Assembly (NCBI GenBank): GCA_943324415.2
Contig: CALPLN020000002.1
Span: 1 to 37,572, forward strand
DNA length: 37,572 bases
Reading direction: 5' to 3'
Source of the DNA: Sediminibacterium ginsengisoli
GTDB taxonomy: Bacteria > Bacteroidota > Bacteroidia > Chitinophagales > Chitinophagaceae
The notes beneath the pieces are model-generated. The model made no database searches. It had not been told where the DNA came from and saw nothing but the letters and a program-made list of their open reading frames with translations. This document shows, piece by piece, positions 8,489 through 34,544 of this stretch; position 1 is the first letter of the stretch, and every line of letters starts with the position of its first letter. Position numbers and translations under genes: made by a program.

Positions 8489-8701
8489 TTATTTTTTGGT
8501 TAAATCAATTGCGAAACTCAATTTTAACGTCACTCGGTATTCGGTGATTTTATTATTTGTAACAATTGCTGTTTGATCTTGAACCCATACGGATTTAATG
8601 TCTTTCAAGGTTTTGCTAGCGTGTGTGACTGCAGTTTGTGCAGCATCTTCCCAACTTTTAGTTGAATTAGACATCACTTCAATTACTTTTACGGTACTCA
8701 T
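8489..8701 (-). CDS. Dodecin family protein
   Basis: 70 aa, KVIEVMSNSTKSWEDAAQTAVTHASKTLKDIKSVWVQDQ...ITEYRVTLKLSF is dodecin-like over its full length. Confidence 0.9.
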   Translation of the reverse strand: MSTVKVIEVMSNSTKSWEDAAQTAVTHASKTLKDIKSVWVQDQTAIVTNNKITEYRVTLKLSFAIDLTKK

Positions 8702-8747
8702 AACATTTATTTAATGTCTAAATTATTAGATAGTAATGTAATTGACA

Positions 8748-8761
8748 ATGACGCCTATCTT
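8748..8761 (-). promoter_or_regulatory. Crp/Fnr-like box, dodecin promoter
   Basis: Reverse complement AAGATaggcGTCAT; centre 8754.5 is 29.5 bp upstream of minus-strand -7-like TAATTTAG (8718-8725). Confidence 0.5.
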
Positions 8762-8769
8762 ACTTTGTA

Positions 8770-8783
8770 TTGATTAATGTCAT
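8770..8783 (+). promoter_or_regulatory. Crp/Fnr-like box, middle of three
   Basis: TTGATtaatGTCAT; centre 8776.5, exactly 22 bp from each neighbouring box. Confidence 0.65.
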
Positions 8784-8791
8784 TCTTAAAA

Positions 8792-8805
8792 TTGACGACA
8801 ATCAA
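8792..8805 (+). promoter_or_regulatory. Crp/Fnr-like box, promoter of the 8853 ORF
   Basis: TTGACgacaATCAA; centre 8798.5 is 29.5 bp upstream of TAATTTTC (8828-8835). Confidence 0.65.
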
Positions 8806-8852
8806 ATCTGCAAATTTGTAGAACTACTAATTTTCATTTTTAATTGAAACTT

Positions 8853-9314
8853 ATGTCTACAATCCTTGCAGAATCATATTTATTGGAGTTGAAAGCTTGG
8901 CTAAAAATTATTTCATTTTATAAAAATCAAATAGAAGTTTTTAAGCATAAATTATTTCAAGCTGTAAAAGTACCAGTCTTAATTAAAGATAGCGCAAGGG
9001 TAGAAGCCTATCAAGTGCACTTAATCGCATTTCAAGATTTTCTGTTTGAAATAGAAGAGTCAATACTAAGTCAAATTGAAGAAATTGATGTGAAATATAT
9101 GTTTGATGATATGCAAAAAAATGAAGCAATAGAACATCGTCAGATCTTGCTTAGGTATAAACTGTATACTGCAGAAAAAAAATACCTAAGTTTTAGAGAA
9201 GTCTTATCACAATATCTAATCAGTATTTTTGAACTTGTTATACTCGCTAAATTAAATAATCGCTTACCTGATTTGCGTTCTACTGGCAGAAGGCCTACAA
9301 ATATTACAGTTTAA
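8853..9314 (+). CDS. Hypothetical protein, predicted helical (153 aa)
   Basis: ATG at 8853 (listed start 8844 is TTG); helix/coiled-coil-like composition; own regulated promoter candidate. Confidence 0.65.
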   Translation: MSTILAESYLLELKAWLKIISFYKNQIEVFKHKLFQAVKVPVLIKDSARVEAYQVHLIAFQDFLFEIEESILSQIEEIDVKYMFDDMQKNEAIEHRQILLRYKLYTAEKKYLSFREVLSQYLISIFELVILAKLNNRLPDLRSTGRRPTNITV

Positions 9315-11036
9315 GTCCTCTTCGGATACGCCTATATTGAGCACTTGTTTATTTTTTGAATTATATCTAAATATACTTATGCCCTTTGCCTTCCAGAAAT
9401 ATGCTGTACTGAATATGGCAGCAACTTCTTGAATGCTACTCGTTTCTGGTAAATTGATCGTTTTTGAAACCCCATTATCAGTGTATTTCTGAAATGCCAA
9501 TTGGTGTTTTAAATGCCATTCAGGTGTAATTTCTTGAGCAGTTTTAAATAGATTTCTGATGGCTACAGGAATTTCAGAAATATAAGCAATTGAACCATAT
9601 TTTAGTACTTTGCTCATGATATCAGAACTGTAAAGCTTTTGCTTATTTAGAGTCGCAATAAACTTTTTATTTACGTGCTCGAATATGGTTTCTTCTAAAA
9701 TATGTTTCTGTTCATAAGCTAAAGCAAAAATAGGTTCTATAGACGAACTTACGTTGGCTATGATGGATATGCTCCCTGTTGGGGCTATGCTTGTTCTAGT
9801 TGCATTGCGCATCGGCATATCTGGTGCGAAAATGCTTTTATTCCAATCTGGGAAACTGCCCCTTTCTCTAGCCAATGCAGCTGAAGCTTCTTTCGCCTTT
9901 TCGTTTATAAATTGCATTATTTTCTCTCCTAATAGGACTGCTTTATCCGAGTCGTAAGGAATCTCAAGTTCTATCAGTACATCCGCCCAGCCCATTACAC
10001 CCAGTCCAATTTTACGACTCTTTAGTGAGGTATTTTTTATCTCAGGAGTAGGATAAGTGTTTATTTCAATAACGTCATCTAAAAATCGGACGGCAGTCAC
10101 TATCGATTCCTCTAACATCCTCCAATGAATCTCCTTAAAACCATTGTTGTCTTTTAGAAATTTAATTAAGTTTAATGAACCAAGATTACAAGATTCATAA
10201 GGCATTAATGGCACTTCGCCACATGGATTGGTTGCATTCATTTTACCTATAGCTTGCAAGGGGTTCTGTTCGTTAATGGTGTCTATAAATAACAATCCAG
10301 GGTCTCCAGTAGACCAGGCAGACTGAATAATTTTATGCCATAAACTTTTTGCATCTACTCTTTTCTCTACATTTTTATAATTTGGGTGAATCAATGGCCA
10401 TTCGTCATTTTTTTCAACTGCTTGCATGAATGCATCAGTGATAGCGATGGAAAGATTAAAATTATTTAGAGCAGACGACTGTTCTTTAGCCTCTATGAAT
10501 GCTTCAATATCAGGATGATTGATGTCTAATATCGCCATATTGGCGCCCCTCCTTCTACCTGATTGTTTAACCCCTTCTGTTAAAGCATCAAAATCTTCTA
10601 TAATTGATAATGGGCCGGATAGATGTCTGCAAATGGAATAGGCGTAATCGTTCTTTGGCGAAATCTTTGAAAAGTTAAATCCAACTCCTCCACCACTAGA
10701 TTGGATTAGTTTTGCATATTTAAAGCTATCATGAATACTTTGCATTGAATCAAAAATGGGCAGCACAAAGCAGGCACTAAGTTGTTGCGCTGTACTTCCT
10801 GCATTCATTAATGTGGGAGAATTGGGTAAAAAAATTAAGTTAGATAGACAGGCGTAAAATTTACTTTCCCATAATTCGGCTTGATCTTTTCCGCCCCATT
10901 GGTATTCTGCATGGGCAATGGATTTTGCAACTCTTTTGAAGAGTTGATCAGGGGATTCAATGATTTCCCCATATCCATCTTTTAATAGGTATCTTTTTTT
11001 TAACAGATATTGACTATGCTCTGATAGATCATTCAT
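9264..11036 (-). CDS. nrdJ: Adenosylcobalamin-dependent (class II) ribonucleoside-diphosphate reductase
   Basis: FLPNSPTLMNAG, SACFVLPIFDSM, SSGGGVGFNFS, NPCGEVPLMPYESCNLGSLNL, APTGSISIIANVSSSIEPIFAL; C-terminal CNIC. Convergent 51-bp overlap with the 8853 ORF. Confidence 0.9.
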   Translation of the reverse strand: MNDLSEHSQYLLKKRYLLKDGYGEIIESPDQLFKRVAKSIAHAEYQWGGKDQAELWESKFYACLSNLIFLPNSPTLMNAGSTAQQLSACFVLPIFDSMQSIHDSFKYAKLIQSSGGGVGFNFSKISPKNDYAYSICRHLSGPLSIIEDFDALTEGVKQSGRRRGANMAILDINHPDIEAFIEAKEQSSALNNFNLSIAITDAFMQAVEKNDEWPLIHPNYKNVEKRVDAKSLWHKIIQSAWSTGDPGLLFIDTINEQNPLQAIGKMNATNPCGEVPLMPYESCNLGSLNLIKFLKDNNGFKEIHWRMLEESIVTAVRFLDDVIEINTYPTPEIKNTSLKSRKIGLGVMGWADVLIELEIPYDSDKAVLLGEKIMQFINEKAKEASAALARERGSFPDWNKSIFAPDMPMRNATRTSIAPTGSISIIANVSSSIEPIFALAYEQKHILEETIFEHVNKKFIATLNKQKLYSSDIMSKVLKYGSIAYISEIPVAIRNLFKTAQEITPEWHLKHQLAFQKYTDNGVSKTINLPETSSIQEVAAIFSTAYFWKAKGISIFRYNSKNKQVLNIGVSEEDLNCNICRPSASRTQIR

Positions 11037-11048
11037 TGTAATGGGATA

Positions 11049-12146
11049 TTAATAATACTGTATGAGCACAATTTTTTGGTAATCTTTTAATACATCTTCG
11101 TCAACAAATTCAACAATTCCGCCTGTAGCTAATGTTTTCTCAATCACATCATCAACTGCGTCTTTGATATAAAGATCATTATGCAATACGTCGTCGTAGT
11201 CAAATATGATTTCTTTTTTAGCTCCCTGTCTTGCCGGATAAACATAGTTTTTTTCAATAATTAAATGTTTTCCCTTCTTTTCTGTCGCCCTTCTCCAGAC
11301 TTCTTTTATCCCTACTGCTAATGTTTTATTGCCCATTGCATCATCAATCACTTTGATTAGATCTTCCTTCTTTTGTTTATTCCATTTTGTAACATAGGGC
11401 TCTACTAGATCTAGTAGCTGTGGTTCTGTATATTCTTCATAATTCCCATGGATATATTCGGTGATATACTTTTTGTGGTGGCTTACTTGTTTAAAGTGTC
11501 CAATGGTTTTTGGTGTACCCATAAAAAAAACTGGAATATTGTACTGGAGTATGATCTGTTTTAATTGAATATCTATATTGTGTAGAAATTTATCCAATTG
11601 GTTTTCTTTAATTTTTGACTCATCAGAAAAATTGGCCACTTTTTCAGGCATATCGTGATATAGCCCATCAATATCAACTGCTTTTATGCTTTCCAATTTT
11701 AATAAGCTATTTGTATTCCCAAGATAAAAAGTACCCGCCTTGCTACTAATGATCATTAAGATGTATTTATGAATCTCTTTTTTAGCATAGACTAAATCTC
11801 TAATTTCAAAAGAGTCATCAATCACGATCCTGTCTTCAAGAGGCATATCCAAATAATAAAATTTTTCTAAAATAGGGGACACAAAAATGGCAATACTTTT
11901 GGTTACTTTAGTATAGTCGATTTCTGAAATGACATGCTTCAGTTTTTTAATGACAGGGTTTGCTATACTTTTAGGGTAGGTCTTTAGCAGTTCTGCACTT
12001 GTTTTATGGACCATCACTTTTAAGTGACCAGTTATTTCCTTTTGAGGATTTACTTGTATATCTACAGATATTATAATCGATATACTAGGATAGTAGCTTT
12101 CTGTTAATATCAAGTCTGAATAAGATTCTGATTGCATTGTTTTCAT
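11049..12146 (-). CDS. baeRF-like (bacterial archaeo-eukaryotic release-factor-like) protein
   Basis: eRF1/Pelota-like C-terminal pattern: VFFMGTPKTIGHFKQVSHHKKYITEYIHGNYEEYTEPQLLDLVEPYVTKW...KTLAVGIKEVWRRATEKKGKHLIIEKNYVYPARQG; family assignment from pattern only. Confidence 0.6.
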   Translation of the reverse strand: MKTMQSESYSDLILTESYYPSISIIISVDIQVNPQKEITGHLKVMVHKTSAELLKTYPKSIANPVIKKLKHVISEIDYTKVTKSIAIFVSPILEKFYYLDMPLEDRIVIDDSFEIRDLVYAKKEIHKYILMIISSKAGTFYLGNTNSLLKLESIKAVDIDGLYHDMPEKVANFSDESKIKENQLDKFLHNIDIQLKQIILQYNIPVFFMGTPKTIGHFKQVSHHKKYITEYIHGNYEEYTEPQLLDLVEPYVTKWNKQKKEDLIKVIDDAMGNKTLAVGIKEVWRRATEKKGKHLIIEKNYVYPARQGAKKEIIFDYDDVLHNDLYIKDAVDDVIEKTLATGGIVEFVDEDVLKDYQKIVLIQYY

Positions 12147-12158
12147 GCTGTATTACAT

Positions 12159-12632
12159 TTAATTTCTTTTATAGAGACCAACCAATGTTCCAAATGCTAG
12201 TATATGAGGCGACATTGCTTTTTCTAATTGGTATTTTGTACAATTGGTATCGAGGTTGAATAAAAAGGTATCGAGTGCATAAACTTTATAATGATAATGG
12301 TGAGTTCCATTAGGCGGACATGGGCCACAATATTTATGCATACCAAAATCATTGATGCCCTGTTTGGCCCTAATTTTATTCGGTTTTATGCTTGTTTTAG
12401 GGTGAATATTCCATGCTACCCAATGCACCCAAGTGCCAACTAGGCCATCAGGATCATCTACAATGATTGCTAAGCTTTTAGTATCGGCGGGCAATCTGCT
12501 TATATTGATTTCTGGAAGTTCATTGATGCCATCACAAGTATACTGCTCTGGAATGAAAGAATTTGGCGTAAAAGCAGGACTTGTTACCTCTAGTGTAGTA
12601 GTATTGGTTGCTATAGATAAGTTGGCTAGCAT
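12159..12632 (-). CDS. YbhB/YbcL family Raf kinase inhibitor-like (PEBP) protein
   Basis: IPEQYTCDGINELPEINISRLPADTKSLAIIVDDPD...WVHWVAWNI...GPCPPNGTHHYHYKVYALD. Confidence 0.92.
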   Translation of the reverse strand: MLANLSIATNTTTLEVTSPAFTPNSFIPEQYTCDGINELPEINISRLPADTKSLAIIVDDPDGLVGTWVHWVAWNIHPKTSIKPNKIRAKQGINDFGMHKYCGPCPPNGTHHYHYKVYALDTFLFNLDTNCTKYQLEKAMSPHILAFGTLVGLYKRN

Positions 12633-12642
12633 TTTATATAAT

Positions 12643-13473
12643 TTAGCTTCTATTTGCTATGAATACAGGTATTGCGTGTTCTTGAATTAAGTCACTTACA
12701 AAGCTCTTGTGAAATAACGACCCCAATCCAGTTCTTCCATAAGCTCCGCTTATTAATAAGGCGTTCTTTCTTTCTAAAAATAGACTGTTGAAATAAGCAT
12801 TTGGCGCAGCGTTATTTTTGAAAATAGTTAAATCATTAAAATGTTTTACTGCAAATTCTTCTAGTAAAATCTGATCAGGTATTTCATGTTTTTCGTCTTC
12901 CTTAGAATACACCACAATTGTTTTATGATTTGCTAATTCTGGAAATAAATAAGCGAATTGTTTAATTGCAAACATGGAATCCTTAGTTCCATCATAGGCT
13001 ATGATATTACATTTAGGAAATACATACTGCTCAGGAATTACCAATGCGGGGCACTCTATCTCTTTTAATGTTTCCACTAAATATTCGGATACTTTATTAA
13101 CTCCATAATCTTTGTAGAATGTTTCAGATCCAAGCAGCATTAAATCTGCAAATCTAGACTCTTTAATGAGTGTTGCTATAGACGAGTCGTCATAGTCTTT
13201 ATGTATTTTATATTCAATATCATTGTTTTGACATTCTTTTTCAAATTTTTCAATGACTTGTTTTATCTCATCGGCGTCTACATCTTCAATTAATGGTATA
13301 AAATAGGTGGAACCAATACCTTCGCCAGCATAATTCCATAATCTAGCATAATCCTTTTTGGGAATAAACACACCTGTTAATGCAATTTTGCTTCTTTCGT
13401 TTAATGATTTTACAAATTCCATAGCGCCTTTAGAGTAATTCGTGCCATCAATTGCTAATAAGATTTTTTTCAT
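12643..13473 (-). CDS. Universal stress protein family
   Basis: MKKILLAIDGTNYSKGAMEFV N-terminus; ADLMLLGSE; C-terminal LISGAYGRTGLGSLFHKSFVSDLIQEHAIPVFI. Confidence 0.88.
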   Translation of the reverse strand: MKKILLAIDGTNYSKGAMEFVKSLNERSKIALTGVFIPKKDYARLWNYAGEGIGSTYFIPLIEDVDADEIKQVIEKFEKECQNNDIEYKIHKDYDDSSIATLIKESRFADLMLLGSETFYKDYGVNKVSEYLVETLKEIECPALVIPEQYVFPKCNIIAYDGTKDSMFAIKQFAYLFPELANHKTIVVYSKEDEKHEIPDQILLEEFAVKHFNDLTIFKNNAAPNAYFNSLFLERKNALLISGAYGRTGLGSLFHKSFVSDLIQEHAIPVFIANRS

Positions 13474-13505: not shown

Positions 13506-13513
13506 CAAACTTA
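13506..13513 (-). promoter_or_regulatory. -7 element TAAGTTTG, usp-nrdJ operon promoter
   Basis: Exact TAnnTTTG on minus strand upstream of ATG at 13473. Confidence 0.65.
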
Positions 13514-13535
13514 TGTTGCTTGTTTTCTTAATACA

Positions 13536-13549
13536 ATGACGATCATCAA
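13536..13549 (-). promoter_or_regulatory. Crp/Fnr-like box, usp-nrdJ operon promoter
   Basis: Reverse complement TTGATgatcGTCAT; centre 13542.5 is 29.5 bp from the -7 element. Confidence 0.7.
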
Positions 13550-13616
13550 ATCTTTTACTGATTCTCATTAGTATTAGGATATATGATTAAGTAAGAATTT
13601 CAAATCATATCCTTTT

Positions 13617-13630
13617 TTGATCATGGTCAT
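13617..13630 (+). promoter_or_regulatory. Crp/Fnr-like box, hsp20 promoter
   Basis: TTGATcatgGTCAT; centre 13623.5 is 29.5 bp upstream of TAGTTTTG (13653-13660). Confidence 0.7.
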
Positions 13631-13652
13631 TTGATTACTTTTCAACTAAAAG

Positions 13653-13660
13653 TAGTTTTG
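13653..13660 (+). promoter_or_regulatory. -7 element TAGTTTTG, hsp20 promoter
   Basis: Exact TAnnTTTG. Confidence 0.6.
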
Positions 13661-14191: not shown

Positions 14192-14289
14192 GATTGCTAA
14201 ATTAATTCAGCTAGTCAGTAGATATACTGAAGCATTGTTTATGATCAGTTTTATATATATAAAATTAATGACTACAATTATGTTCAGTT

Positions 14290-14303
14290 TTGATTTAGGT
14301 CAG
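14290..14303 (+). promoter_or_regulatory. Crp/Fnr-like box, exopolysaccharide operon promoter
   Basis: TTGATttagGTCAG; centre 14296.5 is 29.5 bp upstream of TAAGTTTG (14326-14333); weaker box ATGACtacaATTAT (14268-14281) exactly 22 bp further upstream. Confidence 0.65.
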
Positions 14304-14325
14304 TTTATATATTTTTCATCATGAC

Positions 14326-14333
14326 TAAGTTTG
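14326..14333 (+). promoter_or_regulatory. -7 element TAAGTTTG, exopolysaccharide operon promoter
   Basis: Exact TAnnTTTG, 35 bp before the ATG at 14368. Confidence 0.65.
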
Positions 14334-14367: not shown

Positions 14368-15171
14368 ATGACATATAAAATCAAAAATATATTTATCTAT
14401 TTAACCATGCTAATATCAATGGTATCTTGTGTTTCAAGTAAACCAACAACCTATTTTAACAATGCTTCAGATACCTTATTGGTTCATAATGCATTAAAAA
14501 ATAGTACAAATCATAAGGCTTTAACAATCCAAAAAAATGACATTTTAAATATTTCAATTTCAAGCCTAAATCAAGACGCATCTGCCATTTTTAATACAAC
14601 CAACAATTATGTGTTTACCTCCTCTACCAGTTCGGGGTCAAATACACAGTTAAGTGGTTACCTGGTTAATGAGGATGGCATGATCCACCTTCCAATTTTA
14701 GGAAATATAAAGGCAATAGGGTTAACAAAGAATGAGTTGACGAATAGTATTAAGCAAATTATTATTGAAAAAAGATTATTAATGGATCCAATCGTGAATA
14801 TTAGGCATGTCAACTATGAGGTGACTGTATTGGGGGAAGTGGGCAAACCTTCGGTTATATCTGTTCCAAATGAAAATATATCATTACTAAAGGCCATTGG
14901 GTTAGCTGGAGATATTACGATTTATGGAAGAAAAGACAATGTATTGCTAATTAGAGAATCAGATGAGATAAAACAAATCAAGTATATCGATCTAAACTCT
15001 AAGGACTTTCTACAATCCCCTTATTATTATCTACAACCAAATGACATTATCTATGTTGAATCTAACAAAAATAAGGTGGCTAGTGTGGGCAGAGGTACGA
15101 GATTATTGCCAGTCTTTTTATCTGGCCTATCAGTTGTTATTTTATTAGTTGATCGTGTTTTTTATCAATAA
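14368..15171 (+). CDS. Polysaccharide biosynthesis/export lipoprotein (Wza-like)
   Basis: Lipobox-like SMVSCVSS; IQKNDILNISISSL; VLGEVGKPSVISVPNENISLLKAIGLAGDITIYGRKDNVLLIRE. Confidence 0.9.
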   Translation: MTYKIKNIFIYLTMLISMVSCVSSKPTTYFNNASDTLLVHNALKNSTNHKALTIQKNDILNISISSLNQDASAIFNTTNNYVFTSSTSSGSNTQLSGYLVNEDGMIHLPILGNIKAIGLTKNELTNSIKQIIIEKRLLMDPIVNIRHVNYEVTVLGEVGKPSVISVPNENISLLKAIGLAGDITIYGRKDNVLLIRESDEIKQIKYIDLNSKDFLQSPYYYLQPNDIIYVESNKNKVASVGRGTRLLPVFLSGLSVVILLVDRVFYQ

Positions 15172-15178
15172 TACAATT

Positions 15179-17500
15179 ATGAAAAAAAATATAGACTATA
15201 CCATACAGAAGGAGGAAAGCTTATTTATAGGGGCAATCAGAAATTGCATTCAAAATTGGCCTACCTATTTAATTATTTCTACCATTCTTGGCATCGCTAG
15301 TATGGCCTATCTAAAAATATCGCCAGTATATTACCAGGCAAATGCCTTACTCATTATTAAAGATGAAAAGAAAGGAAATGAAGATTCTAAATTAATGGAG
15401 TCATTAAACTTAATGAGTGCAAAAAGAATCATTGAAAACGAAGTGCAAGTTTTGCAATCAAAAGCCATTATCGACAGGGTCGTACAGAAATTATACCTCA
15501 ATGCACCAATTTATATAAGCAATAGTTTAAATAAAAAAAGAGCCTACTTGAGCAGTCCCATTTTCATTGAACTAAATAAGGGAGAAACCATTAAAAACGG
15601 GATCGGTGCGATTCGGTTTAATTACAATGAGAAGGCCCAGTTAGTCACATTAAACGACCTTTATATTTACCCTTTAAATCAATGGGTTAACACACCCTTT
15701 GGAATGCTAAGATTTATTCCAAATACCCAAAGAATTCCATCAAACGAGGCATTCTATTTTGAACTTTTGAATAACGAAGCAGCAGCTAATACACTTTCTA
15801 GTCAGCTCAAGGTGACTGCTACTAACAAACTTTCTAGTGTGATTAATCTCCAATATAAAGAGGGGGATCCTAGGCTAGCAGAAGCTGTTTTGAACGAAGT
15901 CATCAGCATCTACAATCAAATGATCCAATCCGAAAAGAAAGAATTGGCAAAAACAACACTTCAATTTATTGATGTCCGATTAAATGTCATAGGCGGTCAA
16001 TTGGATTCTATCGAAAATAAAATTAGATCATTCAAAGGAAATAGTAATGCTGTTGACATTGGGACTCAGGGTCAACTTTTCCTTCAAAATGTGAGTTTAA
16101 ATGACCAAAGATTAACGGATATCAATCTAAAGCTAGATATGGTGAATGAACTTGATGACAATATAGCTAGTAAACAACATGGTTTGTTAATTATGCCAAC
16201 CACATTGGGATTGATAGACCCTACATTGACTCAATTAATCACCACATTAAACGATTATGAACTTCAGCATGATAAGATTAAAAATACAACAGCTTCGAAT
16301 AATCCATTAATGGTGTCTTTAAATGAGCAAATTTCTGCCACTAAGGGTCGAATACAGGAGAATATGAAAGCGTATAAAGCATCCTTAGAGAAAAGTAAAA
16401 ATAGTTATGCGCAGAATAACGAGAAGTATGCTAATATGCTTGAGTCGATTCCAGCAAAAGAGCAAGCATTGCTTGAAATAAGCAGAGATAAAAATATAAA
16501 GTCAAATATTTACGCATTTCTTTTGCAAAAAAGAGAAGAAACTGAGATTGCTTATGTTTCAGCCATTTCAGATAAAAGTACGATTTCAAATGCCTATGCC
16601 TCTTCTGATCCAGTGAGTCCAAATCATTTATTGGTATACGGCTCTGCACTGTTGTTATTAATTGGATTCCCAATCGGTTTTGTGGGTTTAAGAGATAGTC
16701 TTGGTGGGTCTATACGTTTTAGGCGTGATATTGAAAATCAGACAAATCTTCCGATTGTAGGTGAAGTTGCACAAGCAGAATGGAAAGATCAAAAATTAAT
16801 ACAGTATGGTGAACAAACAAAGCAATATGAGTCATTTAGGAAAATTAGGTATGCTTTGGCAAATAAAGGAATGGCAGGTAGAAATAAAAAATTGTTAGTT
16901 ACTTCTGGTATTGCAGGTGATGGAAAGAGTTATATCGCCACCAATTTGGCCCTCAGTTTCGCTGATGTTGGGAAAAGAGTGGTTTTAGTTGATTGTGATT
17001 TTAGGCATGCAAGTATGTCAAAATCATTTAATTTTTCCAAGTCAGAGGGTATGACTGATTTCCTTTCTGGTTTGGTAGCGGAGAATGATATCATCAATCC
17101 TATACCAGAGTATAAAAATTTATTTTTCATTCCAGCAGGATCGATACATCAGAACACAACTTCACTATTAGAGAATGGCAGTATTGCTGATTTATTTGAT
17201 TATTTAGAAGATCATTTCGATCTTATTATAATCGATTCTCCTCCCTTGATGGATGTTGCTGATGCGTATTTACTAGCTAATTATTGTGATACAACGTTAT
17301 TTGTAATAAAACATGGCTATACTCCAAAAAACATAGTTGAGTATATCCTTTCTAGTGGCGAGATTAACTCTATTAGTGATACCATGATTCTTTATAATGG
17401 CGTAAAGGACCAGTTTGAGGGGGCTTCTAGAAATAGAATTTTAGGAGATATCAATTCGAAGTATACTATCGGAAGAGGGCAAATCAAGTTGTTAAATTAA
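15179..17500 (+). CDS. Chain-length determinant / tyrosine autokinase-like (Wzc-like)
   Basis: Wzz N-terminus, coiled coils, Walker motifs GIAGDGKSYIATNLA, VLVDCDFRHASMSK, LIIIDSPPLMDVADA; ATG at 15179 preferred over 15149. Confidence 0.9.
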   Translation: MKKNIDYTIQKEESLFIGAIRNCIQNWPTYLIISTILGIASMAYLKISPVYYQANALLIIKDEKKGNEDSKLMESLNLMSAKRIIENEVQVLQSKAIIDRVVQKLYLNAPIYISNSLNKKRAYLSSPIFIELNKGETIKNGIGAIRFNYNEKAQLVTLNDLYIYPLNQWVNTPFGMLRFIPNTQRIPSNEAFYFELLNNEAAANTLSSQLKVTATNKLSSVINLQYKEGDPRLAEAVLNEVISIYNQMIQSEKKELAKTTLQFIDVRLNVIGGQLDSIENKIRSFKGNSNAVDIGTQGQLFLQNVSLNDQRLTDINLKLDMVNELDDNIASKQHGLLIMPTTLGLIDPTLTQLITTLNDYELQHDKIKNTTASNNPLMVSLNEQISATKGRIQENMKAYKASLEKSKNSYAQNNEKYANMLESIPAKEQALLEISRDKNIKSNIYAFLLQKREETEIAYVSAISDKSTISNAYASSDPVSPNHLLVYGSALLLLIGFPIGFVGLRDSLGGSIRFRRDIENQTNLPIVGEVAQAEWKDQKLIQYGEQTKQYESFRKIRYALANKGMAGRNKKLLVTSGIAGDGKSYIATNLALSFADVGKRVVLVDCDFRHASMSKSFNFSKSEGMTDFLSGLVAENDIINPIPEYKNLFFIPAGSIHQNTTSLLENGSIADLFDYLEDHFDLIIIDSPPLMDVADAYLLANYCDTTLFVIKHGYTPKNIVEYILSSGEINSISDTMILYNGVKDQFEGASRNRILGDINSKYTIGRGQIKLLN

Positions 17501-17525
17501 TTTTTTTCTGGTTTTACATACGTTT

Positions 17526-17580
17526 CTTTCCTTTTTTAAGCTTCAAAATGTAACTGAAGTCGGCGAAGCCGTAAGGAAGG
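17526..17580 (+). ncRNA. Candidate structured three-way-junction leader upstream of NusG-like gene
   Basis: P1 17526-17533/17573-17580 (8 bp incl. one GU), P2 17541-17545/17555-17559, P3 CGGC-GAA-GCCG 17561-17571. Confidence 0.4.
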
Positions 17581-17612
17581 CGAAACATTTAGATCACTCA
17601 AATCATTCAAAT

Positions 17613-18140
17613 ATGGAAAAGCTATGGTATGTGGTTTACACAAAGTCAAATTGCGAGAAAAAGGTGTCATGTCTATTGACTAAACATGGAATTGACAATT
17701 ATTGTCCATTAAATAAAACAATGAGACAATGGGCAGATCGGAAGAAAATGGTATTGGTACCAATTTTCACTTCTTATGTCTTTGTTCATATCCCTTCAGA
17801 TAGGTTGTATCAAGTAAAGCAAGCCAGTTCTGATATCATCAATTTTGTTTATTGGCTTGGGAAGCCAGCAGTAGTAAGAAACAATGAAATTGAAAATATA
17901 AAATTATTCTTGGATAAATATAGCAATGTAAAACTTGAAAAAAAATCAATCCGTGTCAACGATACAATTAAGGTAATAAGTGGCCCATTCTTAAATATGG
18001 AAGGAAATATTAAATCCATCGAGCATAATAAAGTAAAATTAGTACTGCCGTCTTTAGGTTATATGATGATAGCAGAAACATCCATACACAATATACAAGT
18101 TGTTCCTAATGGGTATCAACTAGAAAGAATGATTTCATAA
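17613..18140 (+). CDS. NusG-like transcription antitermination protein (UpxY/RfaH-type)
   Basis: KLWYVVYTKSNCEKKVSCLLTKHGIDNYCPLNK...PIFTSYVFVHI...VKVISGPFLNMEGNIKSIE (NGN + KOW pattern). Confidence 0.9.
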   Translation: MEKLWYVVYTKSNCEKKVSCLLTKHGIDNYCPLNKTMRQWADRKKMVLVPIFTSYVFVHIPSDRLYQVKQASSDIINFVYWLGKPAVVRNNEIENIKLFLDKYSNVKLEKKSIRVNDTIKVISGPFLNMEGNIKSIEHNKVKLVLPSLGYMMIAETSIHNIQVVPNGYQLERMIS

Positions 18141-18161
18141 TATCAATCAATTTTTAACACT

Positions 18162-19043
18162 ATGATGCATTTGCTAAAAGCTGCTTTAAAGAGGATGGTT
18201 GCTAATTTTTATATCTATTTTGGATACATCAATAGGGCAAAAAAAAAGATCATAAAGAGTGATTCTGTTGTCTCAATTTATTTTCACAATCCTTCATTTA
18301 AGACATTTAATGATTGTATGCAATGGCTAATAGATAACGATGCCGTCTTTTTAGGACCTAGTGATTTACTGTCCTTTCAATCCAATCCGAATAATACAAA
18401 CAAGCTAAGAGTGCTCATTACAGTTGACGATGGGTGGAGAGAAAACTTATTAAATATAGTTCCGATTGCTCATTTTAATAAAATTCCAGTTACAATATTT
18501 GTTAGTACTGAACCTTTAATAGAAGGCGGCGGATACTGGTGGTCTTATATAAAAAAAGCAGTAAAAAAAGGATACACTGCTTGTACTATCCCATTTTTGA
18601 AAACCATTCCCAATCAAAACCGATTGAGTATCGTCAACCACTTAAAGTCAATGATTCATATCGAGCGTGAATCAATGACCGTCGAGGAATTGAAATCGAT
18701 TGCCATTTCGCCATATATACAAATTGGCGCTCATACTATTACGCACCCTATTCTTACCAATTGCAATGATGATTTAGCAGCTAAAGAAATCATACAATCA
18801 AAGACCGTACTAGACGCAATCCTTCCTGCTCCAGTTAATTGCTTTTCGTATCCAAACGGAAATTATTCGGAAAGAGAAATCAATATTCTTAAAAATAATG
18901 GGTATCAAATCGCTTTTGCGAATACACCTGGCTTGATTCATCTAAATCCTACAATGGATTTATTTAGATTGCCAAGATTTGAAATCTTGGATCATGCTCC
19001 ATTGAATGAAAATATCTGCAGAATGCTAGGTGTCTGGTTTTAA
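18162..19043 (+). CDS. Polysaccharide deacetylase family protein
   Basis: LRVLITVDDGWRENLLNIVPIAHFNKIPVTIFVST...IQIGAHTITHPILTN...FSYPNGNYSEREI. Confidence 0.9.
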   Translation: MMHLLKAALKRMVANFYIYFGYINRAKKKIIKSDSVVSIYFHNPSFKTFNDCMQWLIDNDAVFLGPSDLLSFQSNPNNTNKLRVLITVDDGWRENLLNIVPIAHFNKIPVTIFVSTEPLIEGGGYWWSYIKKAVKKGYTACTIPFLKTIPNQNRLSIVNHLKSMIHIERESMTVEELKSIAISPYIQIGAHTITHPILTNCNDDLAAKEIIQSKTVLDAILPAPVNCFSYPNGNYSEREINILKNNGYQIAFANTPGLIHLNPTMDLFRLPRFEILDHAPLNENICRMLGVWF

Positions 19044-19053
19044 ACAAGTTTAT

Positions 19054-20352
19054 ATGGCTCCATTTTTATATAAAATATTAGCAGGGACGGTCTTGATTAT
19101 TTTTGCTTTTATGTTGCTATGGGTTAAGGGCAATAAGAATATTCCATTTATAGAATATGTGCTGTATACATTTCCCTTTATTTCCATTACTTTATTACCC
19201 TCTATTGGATATCCAACAATTTTCGACATTACCACATTCACATTCTTATTATTTTTTTATAGACCTAGAAGTACTAATGGCGTTTCATTAAAAAAATACG
19301 GCTACTTATTAATCCTATTTTTTATTTCACTACTTTTTGGAGGCATAGGTGCAGAGTCTATTTCTTATGATACAATGCCAGATCTTGTTCAGCTTATTTG
19401 TGTATTCTCCTTTGTTAAAATTGTTTTTGATGAAATCGTGCTAGATCCTTTACTATTTGATCGAATAGTTCAATTATTAAACACTGCTATTTTCCTTTCT
19501 ATTTTGTTTTTAATTTGTCAATTTATTTTTGGGCCACAATTTAGTTTTGATAAGACAGCTAATGTGAACGTTTTACAAGGGAATAACATACGTTTCCCTA
19601 GTTTCTTTCAAGATCCCCAGAAATATGCCCAGTTTTTGTCAGCGGGATTCTTTGTTTCATTAATTCAAACTAAAGCCAGAAATAGTACAAAATCGACTTT
19701 TTATATTTTACCAATAACAATATTGGCTGCATTGTTATTTTCTGGGGGCAGGGCTGGCTTACTGGGTTTGATCCTAGGGGTTGGCTTGATTGTATTGCTT
19801 GGTAATTCCAGGTATCGAATAGCGATTATTATTGCAGCAATTGCTATTGCGTTAGTTAGTTCACAATATGCAGCACAAATGTCCATATTTAATCGTGAAT
19901 CAACTGTTTCAGATGCCTATGAATTTCGATTTGAAATTTGGAAAGATGCTTTTGAGATTTTCAAAGCACATCCCTTTTTCGGAATCGGTATTGGCAATTA
20001 TGCAGCCTATGTCAGTATCCATAATCCAGATCAATACTGGGTAGCTAGCAATGTGTATACTGCATATGACCATCCGGAAAGTGGCTATTTAAAACTTTTG
20101 ACAGAATATGGGTTAATTGGTTTTGTGCTTTTCTTTTCTATGATCTTATATCCAGTCATAAAAGGGGTACAGTATTACTTAAAACATAAGGATTATACTT
20201 CTTTATTACTTATAGCGGCAATCCTTTCATGGATGGTTGGGTTCACAACTGTCTATTCCTTAAGTGATAGCAGGATTGCAGTTTATATAGCAATCATCGT
20301 CACACTTTTAATCATTCGATACAAAGTAAATCTAATAAATGAACCTATTTAG
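19054..20352 (+). CDS. O-antigen ligase/polymerase family membrane protein (Wzy-like)
   Basis: Multiple TM segments; ALLFSGGRAGLLGLILG and HPFFGIGIGNYAAYV...DHPESGYLKLLTEYGLIGFVLF; ATG at 19054 or GTG at 19030. Confidence 0.8.
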   Translation: MAPFLYKILAGTVLIIFAFMLLWVKGNKNIPFIEYVLYTFPFISITLLPSIGYPTIFDITTFTFLLFFYRPRSTNGVSLKKYGYLLILFFISLLFGGIGAESISYDTMPDLVQLICVFSFVKIVFDEIVLDPLLFDRIVQLLNTAIFLSILFLICQFIFGPQFSFDKTANVNVLQGNNIRFPSFFQDPQKYAQFLSAGFFVSLIQTKARNSTKSTFYILPITILAALLFSGGRAGLLGLILGVGLIVLLGNSRYRIAIIIAAIAIALVSSQYAAQMSIFNRESTVSDAYEFRFEIWKDAFEIFKAHPFFGIGIGNYAAYVSIHNPDQYWVASNVYTAYDHPESGYLKLLTEYGLIGFVLFFSMILYPVIKGVQYYLKHKDYTSLLLIAAILSWMVGFTTVYSLSDSRIAVYIAIIVTLLIIRYKVNLINEPI

Positions 20353-21793
20353 AAACTATTATACCCTTTTTTCAACATTCAAGTCAAAGTTGCTTGTAAA
20401 TAGTTTCTGGGGAGTTGCTGCTAACCTGTTACAAAATATATTATTCAGTGTATTTTTTATTATTGTTGCTAGAGTCTACAATCCAACAGATTTTTCTAGT
20501 TATATTTTAGCAAATACACTTTATGGGCTGCTCCTTGCTTTTTCGTCCTTAGGTCTTGGACAATGGTTTGTTAGAAGATTGCTTGAGGATATTGATAAAG
20601 AGCGGCTAATTCATCAATTTTTCAAGTTACAGTTCATCATTGGAGTCGCTTTTTACTTGCTTATCATGGTTACAACATGGATGCTTTATAAAGACCATTT
20701 AGTTAGACAACTTTCTTTGATCATTGGCATTAATATCCTATTTGACAATATTATTTATGTTATAAAGCATGTCAATATTGCTCAAATGGATCAAAAAAAA
20801 ACCTTTTTAATTCAAACAATCGAAGCGGTTTTAAAATTCATTTTAGGTTTAGTCGTAGTTGTATTTCCAGTATCGATGGTCACTTTGGCTTTGATAATTA
20901 TCACACTTAGATTTATCACACTAAACGCCTTCATAAGCTTAGGCACCTCTTTCCCAGTCAGGATAGCCTATTTGTTGAAAGTGAAAATCGATACAAAAGT
21001 GATTAAAGAGATTGTAAGTGACAATTGGCCATTTATTGTAATTGGCAGTATGTCTGTATTGTATTGGAAAATTGGTAATCTTTTTATTGCGAACTATTTA
21101 TCCTTGAAAGAAGTGTCTCATTATGAAATTTCGTATAAATTATTTTCAATGGCTGAAATTGTTCCTGTGATTGTCTCCTCCTCAGTATTTCCAGTGCTTT
21201 TGAAAAAGTTAAACGAGGATAGGACAGCTGCAATGAAATTTTACAATAAAGTATTTATAGCTTATACATTATACGGATTTTTGTCTTTCACTTTTATTTA
21301 TTCATTCGCTGAACAAATTGTCCCTTTTTTATTTGGCTCTAAGTATATCATCACGGCCAAGTATTGTAAAGAAATGTTTTTTACAATACTCATTTTTCCA
21401 ACTGCTATTTTACAGGCAAACTTGATCATTTCTTTACACCGAGAAAAAATCGATATGTGGTTAAATATATTGAGTCTGATACTAAATATGATCTTGTCCA
21501 TGATTGGCTTATATTTTCTTAAATCTATCACAGCGATCAATCTAGCAATTTTCATTTCATTCCTCTTATTTCATTTACTACAAGACTTTGTCCTGATCAA
21601 GCTTAATATGTCGACATTCAAAATTTCAATGTTGTTTTATCTAACCCTCTTTACGGCTTTGTGTATGTATTATGCAGCCTTATCGTACTTTATACCAATC
21701 GTAGCTTTCTGCTTGTTTTGGTTATGCGTATGTGTAATGGTCGGGTATTACATGCATCTTTATTTTAAAAGACAATTAAGTCGCGCTATATAG
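20339..21793 (+). CDS. Oligosaccharide flippase family protein (Wzx-like)
   Basis: About 12 hydrophobic segments; SFWGVAANLLQNILFSVFFIIVARVYNPTDFSSYI N-terminus. Confidence 0.82.
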   Translation: MNLFRNYYTLFSTFKSKLLVNSFWGVAANLLQNILFSVFFIIVARVYNPTDFSSYILANTLYGLLLAFSSLGLGQWFVRRLLEDIDKERLIHQFFKLQFIIGVAFYLLIMVTTWMLYKDHLVRQLSLIIGINILFDNIIYVIKHVNIAQMDQKKTFLIQTIEAVLKFILGLVVVVFPVSMVTLALIIITLRFITLNAFISLGTSFPVRIAYLLKVKIDTKVIKEIVSDNWPFIVIGSMSVLYWKIGNLFIANYLSLKEVSHYEISYKLFSMAEIVPVIVSSSVFPVLLKKLNEDRTAAMKFYNKVFIAYTLYGFLSFTFIYSFAEQIVPFLFGSKYIITAKYCKEMFFTILIFPTAILQANLIISLHREKIDMWLNILSLILNMILSMIGLYFLKSITAINLAIFISFLLFHLLQDFVLIKLNMSTFKISMLFYLTLFTALCMYYAALSYFIPIVAFCLFWLCVCVMVGYYMHLYFKRQLSRAI

Positions 21794-21806
21794 ATACATC
21801 TGACAC

Positions 21807-22967
21807 ATGACAGTTCTTTATTATACCCAAACATATTATCTAGATGCGGCAATTGAAACCATTAGATCTCTTGACTCCGCCAATCTTGATTTGCATTTAG
21901 TGATCGAGATTACACCTGATTCTAAATGTTCCAATATCATCAATATAGCTAGTTTAGAAAATGCAGATGCAGTTACTAGTTTTACAGCATTATTAGGAAA
22001 GGAAACTGCAGCCAACTTTAAGCCGTATTTTAAAGCGGTAAAATCTGTTCAATTTCTTGTGTTTAAAAAAAAGAAGGCATTTAGTATCGATGCTTTAAAA
22101 GCCTTATACCGATTCTCTAAATTGTTGGATAAAATCAAGCCCAATGTAATTCATTTTGATACGGTGACGTTAAGGTCATTACTTATCTTGCCTAAAATAG
22201 TGGGTCTTAAAAAAGTCATAACGATTCATGATCCTATTCCGCATCTTGGGGAGTCTACTTGGAAAGTAAGGATGACAAATCGAGTTTATTTTTCATTAGC
22301 GAATCATTTCATTTTCTACTCCAATTATGCCAAAAAACAATTTGAAATACAGTATCCTTTTTGTACGCAATCAAGAACAGTAATACAATTCCAGCCGTAT
22401 ACCTATAATCAGCTCTTTATAAAGTCAATGAATACGTCGATTGATCCATATATTTTATTTTTTGGAAGAATTTCTTATTACAAAGGAGTTGATTTATTCA
22501 TTTCCATTATTCCTGAAATCTTAAAAAGGTTTCCCAATCAACAATTCATTATTGCAGGTCGTACAGAAGGGTATGAGATCAATGAGGAGATGATTAATAA
22601 GTATAAAAATAATATCCTGTTCATAAATCAATATATAGACTCCTCTGATTTAGTGAGTTTAATTCAACATGCTAAGTTCTTAGTTTGTCCTTATCGTGAT
22701 GCGAGTCAAAGTGGCGTTTTAATGACAGCCATGGCCATTGGGAAGCCAGTGATTGCCACTAATGTTGGCGCTTTCCCGGAATACATCCAAGATGGCTATA
22801 ATGGCCTTGTAGCCGAGCCAAATCACGATTCAATCTTAGATCGTGTATTGCATTATTTAGAGTTCGATCGTTATAAAGAGGCTGAAACTTATGTGAATCC
22901 TACTTTTTCTCAAAGTATAGCAACATCAAATCAAAATTTAATAGCACAAACCTATTTTAATGAATAA
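21807..22967 (+). CDS. Glycosyltransferase (GT4-like)
   Basis: ILFFGRISYYKGVDLFI...CPYRDASQSGVLMTAMAIGKPVIATNVGAFPEYIQDGYNGLV. Confidence 0.88.
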   Translation: MTVLYYTQTYYLDAAIETIRSLDSANLDLHLVIEITPDSKCSNIINIASLENADAVTSFTALLGKETAANFKPYFKAVKSVQFLVFKKKKAFSIDALKALYRFSKLLDKIKPNVIHFDTVTLRSLLILPKIVGLKKVITIHDPIPHLGESTWKVRMTNRVYFSLANHFIFYSNYAKKQFEIQYPFCTQSRTVIQFQPYTYNQLFIKSMNTSIDPYILFFGRISYYKGVDLFISIIPEILKRFPNQQFIIAGRTEGYEINEEMINKYKNNILFINQYIDSSDLVSLIQHAKFLVCPYRDASQSGVLMTAMAIGKPVIATNVGAFPEYIQDGYNGLVAEPNHDSILDRVLHYLEFDRYKEAETYVNPTFSQSIATSNQNLIAQTYFNE

Positions 22968-24081
22968 CAATACTATACCTACTATCGCATTTGTCATCCA
23001 TGGATTATGCATGGGTGGTGCAGAGAAATTTACCATTACCTTATTGAATCATTTACATCAAAACGGGTATCCTGTATTTTTAATCTCATTAAGTGAAGAC
23101 CGCACGTTGGAAAATGAGTTACATCCAAATATTCCCATTTTCACGTTACTCAGGAAATCCAAATACGACTTAACCATCAAGGATAAAATTGCTTATGTCT
23201 TGAAGCAAAATCAGACTGATAAAGTCTTCTGTGTTAATTCGTATGCTTATTTTTTGACGAAATTGGCATTGCGAAAAAACAACCATATTGATGTTTATCT
23301 CTCTTTACATTCAACGGTGTCGTCTAGTATCAAAAATTATTTTCAAAACTTATTCTATTTCAGAGTGATGGATCCAACTGATCATATTGTTTTTTTATGC
23401 CAAAATCAAAAGGAATATTTATCAAAACATTATTTTATTTCCAATCCGAATCAGCATGTCATTAACAATGGGGTAGATACCAATTATTTTAGGCCTAATA
23501 AGGAATCAGATGGAATTAAAACTGCAGCAAGGACGCGATTTAATTTAAGTCAAGACGAATCTGTCATATTAAAAGTGGCAAGAATTGCACCGGAAAAAGG
23601 TCATTTAGATGCTATTGAGGCTTTATACATATTACACGACAAGTATAAAGAATCTGCACATCTTATTTTCGTAGGCGATGGGCCATCCTTGTTTAAATAT
23701 AAAATCAGAAAGTCAATTGCTGAAAGAGGCCTAGAAAACTTTATTCATCTAGAAGGTAACCAACAAGACGTAAGGGGGTATTACCAATTTGCTGATCTAT
23801 TTACTTTGACATCCCATAGTACAGAAACCTTTTCAATTGCTGCGCTAGAAGCTATGGCTTATGGGCTACCCTGTTCTATGACAGATGTGGGAGGAGCAAG
23901 TGAAATGATTGTCCCTGGGGTAAATGGACTTTTAACAACACCGCATGATCCCTTATCGATGGCAGAGAGTTGGTATACTTTACTTTCTGTAAAACCAAAG
24001 CGTGATATAATTAGAGCACATGTTGTAGACCATTTTGACAAAGACCAGATGCTTGCTCAATACGACGCTATTTTATTATAA
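22960..24081 (+). CDS. Glycosyltransferase family 4
   Basis: GLCMGGAEKFTITLL...VARIAPEKGHLDAIEAL...HLIFVGDGPS...FSIAALEAMAYGLPCSMTDVGGASEMI. Confidence 0.9.
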   Translation: MNNNTIPTIAFVIHGLCMGGAEKFTITLLNHLHQNGYPVFLISLSEDRTLENELHPNIPIFTLLRKSKYDLTIKDKIAYVLKQNQTDKVFCVNSYAYFLTKLALRKNNHIDVYLSLHSTVSSSIKNYFQNLFYFRVMDPTDHIVFLCQNQKEYLSKHYFISNPNQHVINNGVDTNYFRPNKESDGIKTAARTRFNLSQDESVILKVARIAPEKGHLDAIEALYILHDKYKESAHLIFVGDGPSLFKYKIRKSIAERGLENFIHLEGNQQDVRGYYQFADLFTLTSHSTETFSIAALEAMAYGLPCSMTDVGGASEMIVPGVNGLLTTPHDPLSMAESWYTLLSVKPKRDIIRAHVVDHFDKDQMLAQYDAILL

Positions 24082-24089
24082 AAATTTTT

Positions 24090-25148
24090 ATGCCTGATAT
24101 TTTTTCAAAAGTGCTCTATGTAGGGCCTTTAAACCCTTATGGTGGCATTGGAGCAGTTTCAAGGACATATGAGGAAAATATAAAGCAATATAATTTTATT
24201 GCAACCCATAAAGACCAATCTAAGCTAGGCAACACTATTTTTTTTACTTACAGTTTAGTTAAAATAGTTACTTTTTTATTTTTAAATCGAAATATAAAAA
24301 TAGTCCATCTACATAGTGCTTCAAAAGGAAGTTTTATCCGAAAAATCATCATTGCATTATTTGCAAAAATAGGAAGTAAAAAAGTGGTTTTTCACATGCA
24401 TGGAGGGCAGATGAAAAAGTTCTATGGTCAATTAACCTGGTCAAGAATTATTTTCAAAAGTATACTTTCTAAAATTGACGTTTTTATATGTTTAACTGAA
24501 GAGTGGAAAAATTACTTCCAAAATCAACTTGAATTGCAGAACGTGGTAGTACTTGGTAACCCAGTAAAAATAGCCAATGCAGTTACGCATAAACCATTCA
24601 ATAATACAATATCACTTTTATTTTTAGGAAGTCTTAATCCCAATAAAGGCATATTTGATTTGTTAACCTATCTCCGTTCTAATGTCTATTTTAAAAACAA
24701 ACAAATTCGTTTACTCATTGGTGGCACAGGGGATGTCGATACATTGAATGGTTTCATACAAGATCCTGCATTCTTGAATCAAATTAAATATATTGGTTTT
24801 GTGAGTGGTCAGTCTAAAGAGGATGCCATAAAAGATTGTGATGTCTTTATATTGCCATCTTATTTTGAAGGCCTACCGGTATCCATATTAGAGGCAATGG
24901 GTCATGGAAAACCTGTTATAAGCACTCGTGTAGGTGGTATTCCATCTGTAGTGCAGGAAAACAAAAATGGATGGTTATTTAATGCAGGTGATTTTAGGCA
25001 ATTGGACAAAATTTTTGATGAGATCATACACCAAAAATTTCCACTTAAACTCTACCAGCAAAATGCTTACAACACAGCATCTGAATTTTCTTCTGAAAAA
25101 GTTTTGTTGAATTTATCTGGTATCTATAAAAATTTATTGAATGAATAA
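24090..25148 (+). CDS. Glycosyltransferase family 4
   Basis: PYGGIGAVSRTYE...FLGSLNPNKGIFDLL...LPSYFEGLPVSILEAMGHGKPVISTRVGGIPSVV. Confidence 0.9.
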   Translation: MPDIFSKVLYVGPLNPYGGIGAVSRTYEENIKQYNFIATHKDQSKLGNTIFFTYSLVKIVTFLFLNRNIKIVHLHSASKGSFIRKIIIALFAKIGSKKVVFHMHGGQMKKFYGQLTWSRIIFKSILSKIDVFICLTEEWKNYFQNQLELQNVVVLGNPVKIANAVTHKPFNNTISLLFLGSLNPNKGIFDLLTYLRSNVYFKNKQIRLLIGGTGDVDTLNGFIQDPAFLNQIKYIGFVSGQSKEDAIKDCDVFILPSYFEGLPVSILEAMGHGKPVISTRVGGIPSVVQENKNGWLFNAGDFRQLDKIFDEIIHQKFPLKLYQQNAYNTASEFSSEKVLLNLSGIYKNLLNE

Positions 25149-26412
25149 GTTTACCGTTTTTTCATTGATTGGGTACATTCGGATAGTGCTTATTGATGTA
25201 TTAGGAGGCACTACGATCTTAAAAACATTAACCAGATTTAAAGCAGAAGAACTACTTCCAAAAGATGAATTGAAGCAATTAAGCAAATCAAGACTGGACC
25301 AATTATTTCATATTGCTAAAACCACCACCCCTTATTATAAAGCTGCTTCAAATTACGAAGGGCTAGAAGTACTGGAGAAAGCGACAATTAGGCAATCCAA
25401 TCACGAATTCATTTCTAGTAGTTTTAAGCAGAAAATGTACCCTAAATCAACTGGGGGGTCTACAGGCATTCCTTTGAATTATTTAACGACACCAGCATCT
25501 AGATCGGCAATGTGGGCGGGCATTTTAATGTCTTGGCAGGTAGCTGGGTATCAATTCGGCGATAAAGTGGCCTTTATTGCAGGGACATCGATCGTTAAAA
25601 CAAATCTTAAACACAAGTTATTTTATTTTCTTTTCAATATAGAGGTGTATTCCGTTTACGATCTTTCGGATAAAAAACTAAAGGAATACATTCGTAAAAT
25701 CAATGAATCTAAAGTGGCCATCATCTATGGCTATGCATCTGCCTTAGGTCATATTGCTACTTACCTACTTCGTCATGGACCGATTGAATTCCCTTATTTA
25801 AAAGGCATTATTTGCACTGCTGAAGTGTTAACTGAGAATACACGGCATCAAATTCAAACTGCCTTTTTTGTTCCAGTATTCAATCAATATGGATGCAATG
25901 AAGCAGGGGTATCTGCGTATGAATGTAAGCATCATCAAATGCACCTCATTAGTTCAAGGTCATATTATGAGGTTGACTCCGAACAACATTTAATTTCTAC
26001 TGATTTAACCAATTTGGGTTTTATCATCATGAAATATAAGACGGGAGATTTGATTGAGTTTGATGAAGCTACTGTTTGTGCATGCAAAAGCAATTATCCC
26101 ATTATAAAGCATATCATGGGAAGGACCTGTGATATTGTCACAGATTATGAAGGTCATTCTTTACATAGTTGTTTTTTTAATATTTTATTCAGGGACGATA
26201 AAAGTATCAAACAGTTTCAGATTGTTTTTAGCGATACAAGTTTAAAAATTTATTTAAATGTAGATCCTGATTTAGCGGTGGAAGCACATTATGAAAAATA
26301 CATCACTGAAATTAAAAAGCATCTTCATTTTGATAGTTATAAGCTCATATTCAATGCCCCATTTTTAAAGTTTGAAAATGCAAAACATCGTTTTGTCATA
26401 CAAGAAGATTAA
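25141..26412 (+). CDS. Phenylacetate-CoA ligase-like (PaaK/CapK-type) adenylate-forming family protein
   Basis: STGGSTGIPLNY, FNQYGCNEAGVSAYEC, IMKYKTGDLIEFDE. Confidence 0.8.
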   Translation: MNKFTVFSLIGYIRIVLIDVLGGTTILKTLTRFKAEELLPKDELKQLSKSRLDQLFHIAKTTTPYYKAASNYEGLEVLEKATIRQSNHEFISSSFKQKMYPKSTGGSTGIPLNYLTTPASRSAMWAGILMSWQVAGYQFGDKVAFIAGTSIVKTNLKHKLFYFLFNIEVYSVYDLSDKKLKEYIRKINESKVAIIYGYASALGHIATYLLRHGPIEFPYLKGIICTAEVLTENTRHQIQTAFFVPVFNQYGCNEAGVSAYECKHHQMHLISSRSYYEVDSEQHLISTDLTNLGFIIMKYKTGDLIEFDEATVCACKSNYPIIKHIMGRTCDIVTDYEGHSLHSCFFNILFRDDKSIKQFQIVFSDTSLKIYLNVDPDLAVEAHYEKYITEIKKHLHFDSYKLIFNAPFLKFENAKHRFVIQED

Positions 26413-26422
26413 AACAAAGCCT

Positions 26423-27445: not shown

Positions 27446-27485
27446 TTTGATTGCACAACTGTTGTCACCTTTTAAATTTAATGAT

Positions 27486-28499: not shown

Positions 28500-28500
28500 G

Positions 28501-29406: not shown

Positions 29407-29408
29407 TA

Positions 29409-31876: not shown

Positions 31877-31886
31877 TATTTTATAA

Positions 31887-31905: not shown

Positions 31906-31929
31906 ATCATTTTCTCCAAAAATTTCATT

Positions 31930-33183: not shown

Positions 33184-33209
33184 TGGCCTAACAAGAATCA
33201 ATTAATTTA

Positions 33210-34536: not shown

Positions 34537-34544
34537 CTAACACT

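Follow-up and report, generated by a model that had tools for sequence, protein, structure and literature searches.

In Escherichia coli, class II and class III activation by CRP and FNR places one dimer at -41.5, over the upstream promoter element, and a second dimer further upstream, on TGA...TCA palindromes. The rhizobial FixL-FixJ-FixK system combines a PAS histidine kinase, a receiver and Crp/Fnr-type DNA binding upstream of cbb3 oxidase and CcoI/FixS-type genes, and the DevR/DosR regulon includes USPs and a small heat-shock protein. DevR/DosR of Mycobacterium tuberculosis is a kinase-driven, autoregulated response regulator that binds cooperatively through its receiver to close-packed sites, the proximal one lying over -35, and its sites are shared in the divergent tgs1-Rv3131 promoter (PMC3029386). 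The region between a dodecin gene and orf8853 in the window (the whole 37,572-nucleotide stretch of Sediminibacterium ginsengisoli DNA analysed here, contig C2 of a 1.78 Mb, 75% complete draft genome) resembles each of these systems in part. Like the E. coli promoters, its array offers a predicted -41.5 dimer site and a second upstream site built on TGA...TCA palindromes; it differs in belonging to Bacteroidota sigma-A promoters with TAnnTTTG and no -33 element, in having a second site that abuts at exactly 22 bp (-63.5) regulon-wide, and in a middle box common to two divergent promoters. As in FixL-FixJ-FixK, a PAS kinase, a receiver and a Crp/Fnr-type binding domain are associated with arrays ahead of cbb3 genes, but here a single fusion protein, RR-CRP, combines the receiver and Crp domains, and the promoters carry two phased boxes. 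DevR is a NarL-type protein with other DNA sites, whereas the output domain of RR-CRP is HTH_Crp_2 and not NarL-type, making the parallel functional and not one of homology. The likeness to Fnr-type iron-sulphur sensors lies in relatives that encode a short Crp protein with a cysteine cluster and share the same 22-bp code; none was found in this genome, and the N-terminal cysteine cluster that marks Fnr iron-sulphur proteins is absent from RR-CRP. Among open-access papers we found no description of such an array or regulator. Tandem Crp/Fnr activation in general is already known; the base-exact tandem arrangement looks like an undescribed form of it.

The dodecin gene (8489-8701, minus strand; PF07311, E 8.5e-26) and orf8853 (8853-9314, plus strand) diverge from a 151-bp intergenic region with three boxes, matched against the consensus WTGAYNNNNRTCAW at 10 scored positions. 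Box 1, ATGACGCCTATCTT (8748-8761, minus strand, centre 8754.5), agrees at 9 of 10 positions, and both box 2, TTGATTAATGTCAT (8770-8783, assigned to neither strand, centre 8776.5), and box 3, TTGACGACAATCAA (8792-8805, plus strand, centre 8798.5), at 10 of 10. The placement of the boxes at exact 22-bp steps in the original prediction was correct, and shuffling the intergenic region gave a 22-bp triple of equal quality in 0 of 20,000 trials, a 10+10 pair at 22 bp in 0 of 20,000 and, with all spacings of 14 to 44 bp allowed, a 10+10 pair in 0 of 3,000. The first T of the dodecin -7 element TAATTTAG (8718-8725, minus strand) is at 8725, exactly 29.5 bp from the centre of box 1, and the first T of the orf8853 -7 element TAATTTTC (8828-8835, plus strand) is at 8828, exactly 29.5 bp from the centre of box 3; each element keeps 5 of 6 consensus bases, a match this good having a chance of about 0.013 at one given position. 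The assignment of the left box to dodecin and the right box to orf8853 is therefore supported. Given exactly 29.5 bp between the centre of either outer box and its -7 element, box 2 is the predicted distal (-63.5) box of both promoters, with boxes 1 and 3 as the predicted proximal (-41.5) boxes of dodecin and orf8853, respectively. The middle box had been said to fit neither -7 element, which is true and is now accounted for by its distal role on both sides, and the proposed sharing of one site between two divergent promoters is refined accordingly. A further suggestion, that the site acts as a switch, found no support: there is no sign of mutually exclusive binding, and the layout is that of co-activation. 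Box 1 is the weakest of the three, with one good half-site (ATGAC) and ATCTT as the other, and its PWM score as a proximal box is 5.7 against a median of 12.1 in other promoters; box 3 reaches 10.5 on the same scale, and box 2, scored as distal, 13.8 in one direction and 13.2 in the other (other-promoter median 14.1). Box 1 and both -7 elements of this region are thus imperfect matches.

The register between box and -7 element recurs well beyond this locus. In Flavobacterium psychrophilum, TAnnTTTG is found at -12 to -5 (PMC9723704), and with the motif so placed the box centres are predicted at -41.5 and -63.5. Across 152 gene-facing sides of 119 unique arrays, a TAnnTTTG match (TA kept, at least 5 of 6 overall) starts exactly 29.5 bp from the nearer box centre in 78, with the next highest position reaching 6; relaxing the TA condition raises the count to 100 of 152. 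No -33 element was seen in the aligned promoters of this array set. When all perfect intergenic boxes are pooled, -7 elements peak at +29.5 (27) and +51.5 (31), two positions 22 bp apart, with at most 6 elsewhere. The predicted centre of the proximal palindrome, 29.5 bp upstream of the -12 T, is the location near -41.5 that characterises class II promoters. A second upstream dimer site in fixed register, as in tandem or class III promoters, is present in both window promoters and in 62 of 86 promoters picked by one box and a -7 element only, where the second box stands at 22 bp and any other spacing accounts for at most 3. Divergent promoters that share an array mostly have two boxes in common, the proximal box of either gene being the distal box of its neighbour (8 cases, with 22 bp between proximal boxes). 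Proximal boxes 44 bp apart, with one middle box for both genes and a -7 element on either side, occur among the arrays examined only at dodecin/orf8853, a rare arrangement seen in this single case; the other 22-bp triples (L167 and G185) have one -7 element only, that of G185 lying near a class II ribonucleotide reductase gene and a USP gene. Beside an Fnr-like gene (L236-L242, around position 1420), a 22-bp pair is followed, where the -7 element is expected, by TATCTTGC, in agreement with the TAnnTTGY variant described for F. psychrophilum. Separately, two near-identical inverted repeats, TTGATAGTTGTCAG...CTGACAACTATCA, at G010:C1:975163-975214 and 1861336-1861386 may be copies of a dispersed repeat resembling box pairs.

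The original prediction depended on the 22-bp phasing being found in related genomes, and it is present there, the peak falling on exactly 22 bp; the named relatives are Chitinophagaceae and other Bacteroidota. Of the intergenic box pairs in the window and 20 related regions, 24 are spaced by 22 bp, and no other spacing accounts for more than 3. A set of 80 named Bacteroidota loci (1.32 Mb) has 98 intergenic pairs at 22 bp against a mean of 4.15 at other spacings (maximum 11, at 19 bp). These loci were picked around RR-CRP genes, a selection that does not apply to the genome-wide pair counts; the coding sequence of these loci has no comparable 22-bp peak. Counted by the first gene downstream, the arrays precede 63 distinct families, of which 39 have an exact -7 element, and therefore do not represent one orthologous promoter counted repeatedly. 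Other in-phase spacings (32-33 and 42-43 bp) are enriched neither among the 80-locus pairs nor in the 86-promoter set, which rules out that location on the same helical face is what matters. A common helical face, as claimed earlier, is thus insufficient. Because the other same-face spacings show no enrichment, exact nearest-neighbour packing, and not helical phase alone, is the conserved feature. In 41 genomes, strict pairs of whatever gap were too few to reveal a spacing preference. Class-wide counts give 471 pairs at 22 bp against 236 at the comparison spacing in 99 Bacteroidia genomes taken irrespective of regulator content, which suggests that the code reaches beyond the order Chitinophagales.

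Within the window, four other promoters combine a -41.5 box with an exact -7 element, and three of the four also have a distal box. An operon on the minus strand encoding USP, PEBP, baeRF family 3 and class II (adenosylcobalamin-dependent) ribonucleotide reductase (9264-13473; Pfam and NCBIfam, the reductase by TIGR02504 above cutoff) is preceded by a promoter at 13506-13571 with its -7 element TAAGTTTG at 13506-13513, proximal box at 13536-13549 and distal box at 13558-13571. The HSP20 promoter (13617-13660, plus strand; PWM) has a proximal box at 13617-13630 and the -7 element TAGTTTTG at 13653-13660, without a good distal box. The polysaccharide-export operon (14368-33183) has an exact-architecture promoter on the plus strand (14268-14333; PWM), with boxes at 14268-14281 and 14290-14303 and the -7 element TAAGTTTG at 14326-14333, an arrangement that would link capsule or exopolysaccharide production to the low-oxygen/stress regulon. 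The promoter of an AraC-family gene (34523-34588, plus strand), with boxes at 34523-34536 and 34545-34558 and the -7 element TAGCTTTA at 34581-34588, is the top score of the window PWM scan, for which the matrix was trained without window sequences. The further 22-bp pairs of the window are accordingly 14268/14290 and 34523/34545, together with the weaker 13536/13558 and 33188/33210; the last (33188-33223, plus strand) lies upstream of the RR-CRP gene and has no good -7 element at the expected place (TAATATTA). C-rich runs (repeated CCCCC) also occur upstream of RR-CRP, at 33291-33370, in AT-rich intergenic DNA. A PWM scan of 1.13 Mb of the genome returned 8 matches, all intergenic and none coding, and those outside the window precede a cytochrome c gene adjoining kinase/RR-CRP, a gene for a CcoI-like copper-type ATPase, and a 170-aa gene that matches no Pfam family.

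Four dodecins of the genus keep the geometry of proximal box and -7 element, the -7 of G010 being off by 1 bp. The window has a good distal box, G010 a partial one and G023 a weak one; G003 has none. The expected phasing at dodecin orthologues is thus borne out within the genus for the proximal box and -7 element, but not consistently for the distal box, and two dodecins of other families show none of the box/-7 architecture. In G023, the dodecin gene diverges from an RR-CRP gene across a 22-bp array. The product of orf8853 has no Pfam or NCBIfam match, and a single-sequence search found no relative; it was detected only by the profile of a neighbour family, an HMM of 65 proteins encoded beside RR-CRP and built without orf8853, which scored it at 26 bits (E 1.2e-8, bias 8.8; 34 window proteins). 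This family of helical proteins of about 126 aa, unnamed and likewise without Pfam or NCBIfam match, is encoded at L097:9661-10059 and at about 64 other loci beside RR-CRP genes, with orf8853 as a distant member. The profile match and the same promoter architecture in 17 of 63 family members indicate that orf8853 is probably a real gene of this regulon, with some doubt left because helical proteins can score by composition.

Genes or operons downstream of 22-bp arrays include kinase/RR-CRP, cbb3 oxidase CcoN-O, CcoI, FixS/CcoS, cytochrome c, two USP groups, HSP20, dodecin, DoxX, FtsH, NiFe hydrogenase, PNPOx and DUF892 proteins, and 22-bp pairs also precede class II ribonucleotide reductase. 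This is a low-oxygen and stress gene set, from which we infer low oxygen as the signal.

Comparison of 22-bp with 23-bp pair counts in 151 genomes connects the arrays to two regulators, an excess being found only where RR-CRP or an Fnr-like protein is encoded. In the genus, the counts are 186 v 57 with RR-CRP only (35 genomes), 145 v 67 with the Fnr-like short Crp only (30 genomes), 95 v 32 in the Fnr-like-only subset with close copies (16 genomes) and 24 v 37 with neither regulator (23 genomes); other families of the order show a like pattern, with 27 v 35 where neither is present. Within the genus, RR-CRP and the Fnr-like protein come close to excluding each other (Fisher p 1.6e-6), and their recognition helices are almost alike (GTATESLIRTLSDFK in RR-CRP and GTATESTIRLLSDFK in the Fnr-like protein). 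The Fnr-like protein has an N-terminal CxxCx8C cysteine cluster, matches Fnr models below cutoff and has no receiver; the 22-bp code therefore does not need one. That RR-CRP alone explains the arrays is ruled out by their presence in Fnr-like-only genomes. A PAS histidine kinase often adjoins RR-CRP, and 22-bp arrays precede such operons. The canonical RR-CRP of this genome, split over contigs C52 and C120, is 76-80% identical to that of a relative and has a kinase beside it. The window RR-CRP (33481-34521, plus strand; receiver, cNMP-binding and HTH_Crp domains by Pfam) sits at the end of the polysaccharide operon with no kinase neighbour, and its receiver is degenerate. It has lost the acidic pair, the phospho-acceptor Asp and the Lys that 13 of 14 aligned RR-CRPs keep: Asp52 is changed to Gly, and the acidic pair and KPF motif are gone. 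It is possibly a phosphorylation-independent paralogue of the canonical copy.

We read the geometry, its recurrence, its association with the regulators and the downstream gene content, all of which are observed directly, as a symmetric divergent promoter assembled from a two-dimer module for a Crp/Fnr-type activator, with the middle box serving both genes. We hold this to be likely, with binding, cooperativity and activation deduced from the DNA. The module would consist of a distal box, a 22-bp step, a proximal box and, 29.5 bp further, TAnnTTTG, giving centres at -63.5 and -41.5. A Crp/Fnr-type activator would fill the array, here most likely the kinase-coupled RR-CRP, acting as the canonical C52/C120 copy, perhaps joined by the window's divergent one. 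The dimer at -41.5 would cover the site of the missing -33 element and touch RNA polymerase, while the abutting dimer at -63.5 may steady it through dimer-dimer or alpha-CTD contacts; cooperativity between dimers is plausible at this packing. The middle dimer could back either side of the divergent pair, and the predicted outcome is joint induction of dodecin and orf8853 with the low-oxygen/stress regulon. Points that weigh against this reading are the imperfect box 1 and -7 elements, the uneven distal box at dodecin orthologues, the degenerate receiver of a window RR-CRP that has no kinase neighbour, the occurrence of the code with an Fnr-like protein as well, and the 75% completeness of the draft genome.

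An alternative that accepts the promoter code as real assigns it to a Crp/Fnr protein other than RR-CRP, for instance an Fnr-like iron-sulphur regulator. The excess of 22-bp pairs in Fnr-like-only genomes (145 v 67) and a recognition helix almost that of RR-CRP would both suit such an exchange, as would a genome that is 75% complete and a window RR-CRP without its phosphorylation site. However, a whole-genome search of this 75%-complete draft found no Fnr-like gene and returned RR-CRP itself as best match, and the near-exclusivity of the two regulators in the genus, with a canonical RR-CRP and its kinase present here, makes this substitution improbable.

Two further readings question the module itself. 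In the first, each outer box would make up a single-site class II promoter independent of the other, and the middle box would serve for repression or looping, or as a switch between the two genes. We judge this very unlikely: the middle box is indeed the strongest of the three, and some promoters of the set, including those of window HSP20 and the G003 dodecin, lack a good distal box, but promoters picked by proximal box and -7 alone mostly have the 22-bp partner (62 of 86), and the -63.5 box is clear of the RNA polymerase core site, at a position filled in non-divergent promoters too. Chance spacing in AT-rich, TGA/TCA-rich DNA deserves almost no credence. Single boxes are common, the window having 22 copies of TTGAN6TCA where about 11 are expected, yet no shuffle reproduced the triple, two -7 elements fall on the bases predicted for them, 63 first-gene families have the geometry upstream, and the 22-bp excess is lacking where both regulators are absent; the comparative data already contradict a chance origin.

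Taken more broadly, we lean towards a view in which Bacteroidota use a base-exact two-dimer code (-63.5 / -41.5 / TAnnTTTG) as one low-oxygen/stress activation unit, the sensor having been exchanged in evolution between an iron-sulphur Fnr-like protein and a kinase-driven RR-CRP while the DNA code stayed unchanged, and a third in-register site would allow one middle dimer to act for both promoters of a divergent pair. How transcription is activated in Bacteroidota is poorly understood, and this proposal supplies a testable mechanism of dimer-dimer packing. It also ties the unnamed protein family of orf8853 to this regulon. Two different sensing modules appear to feed one unchanged DNA code, and a code exact to the base would make the low-oxygen/stress regulon predictable from sequence alone in Chitinophagales.
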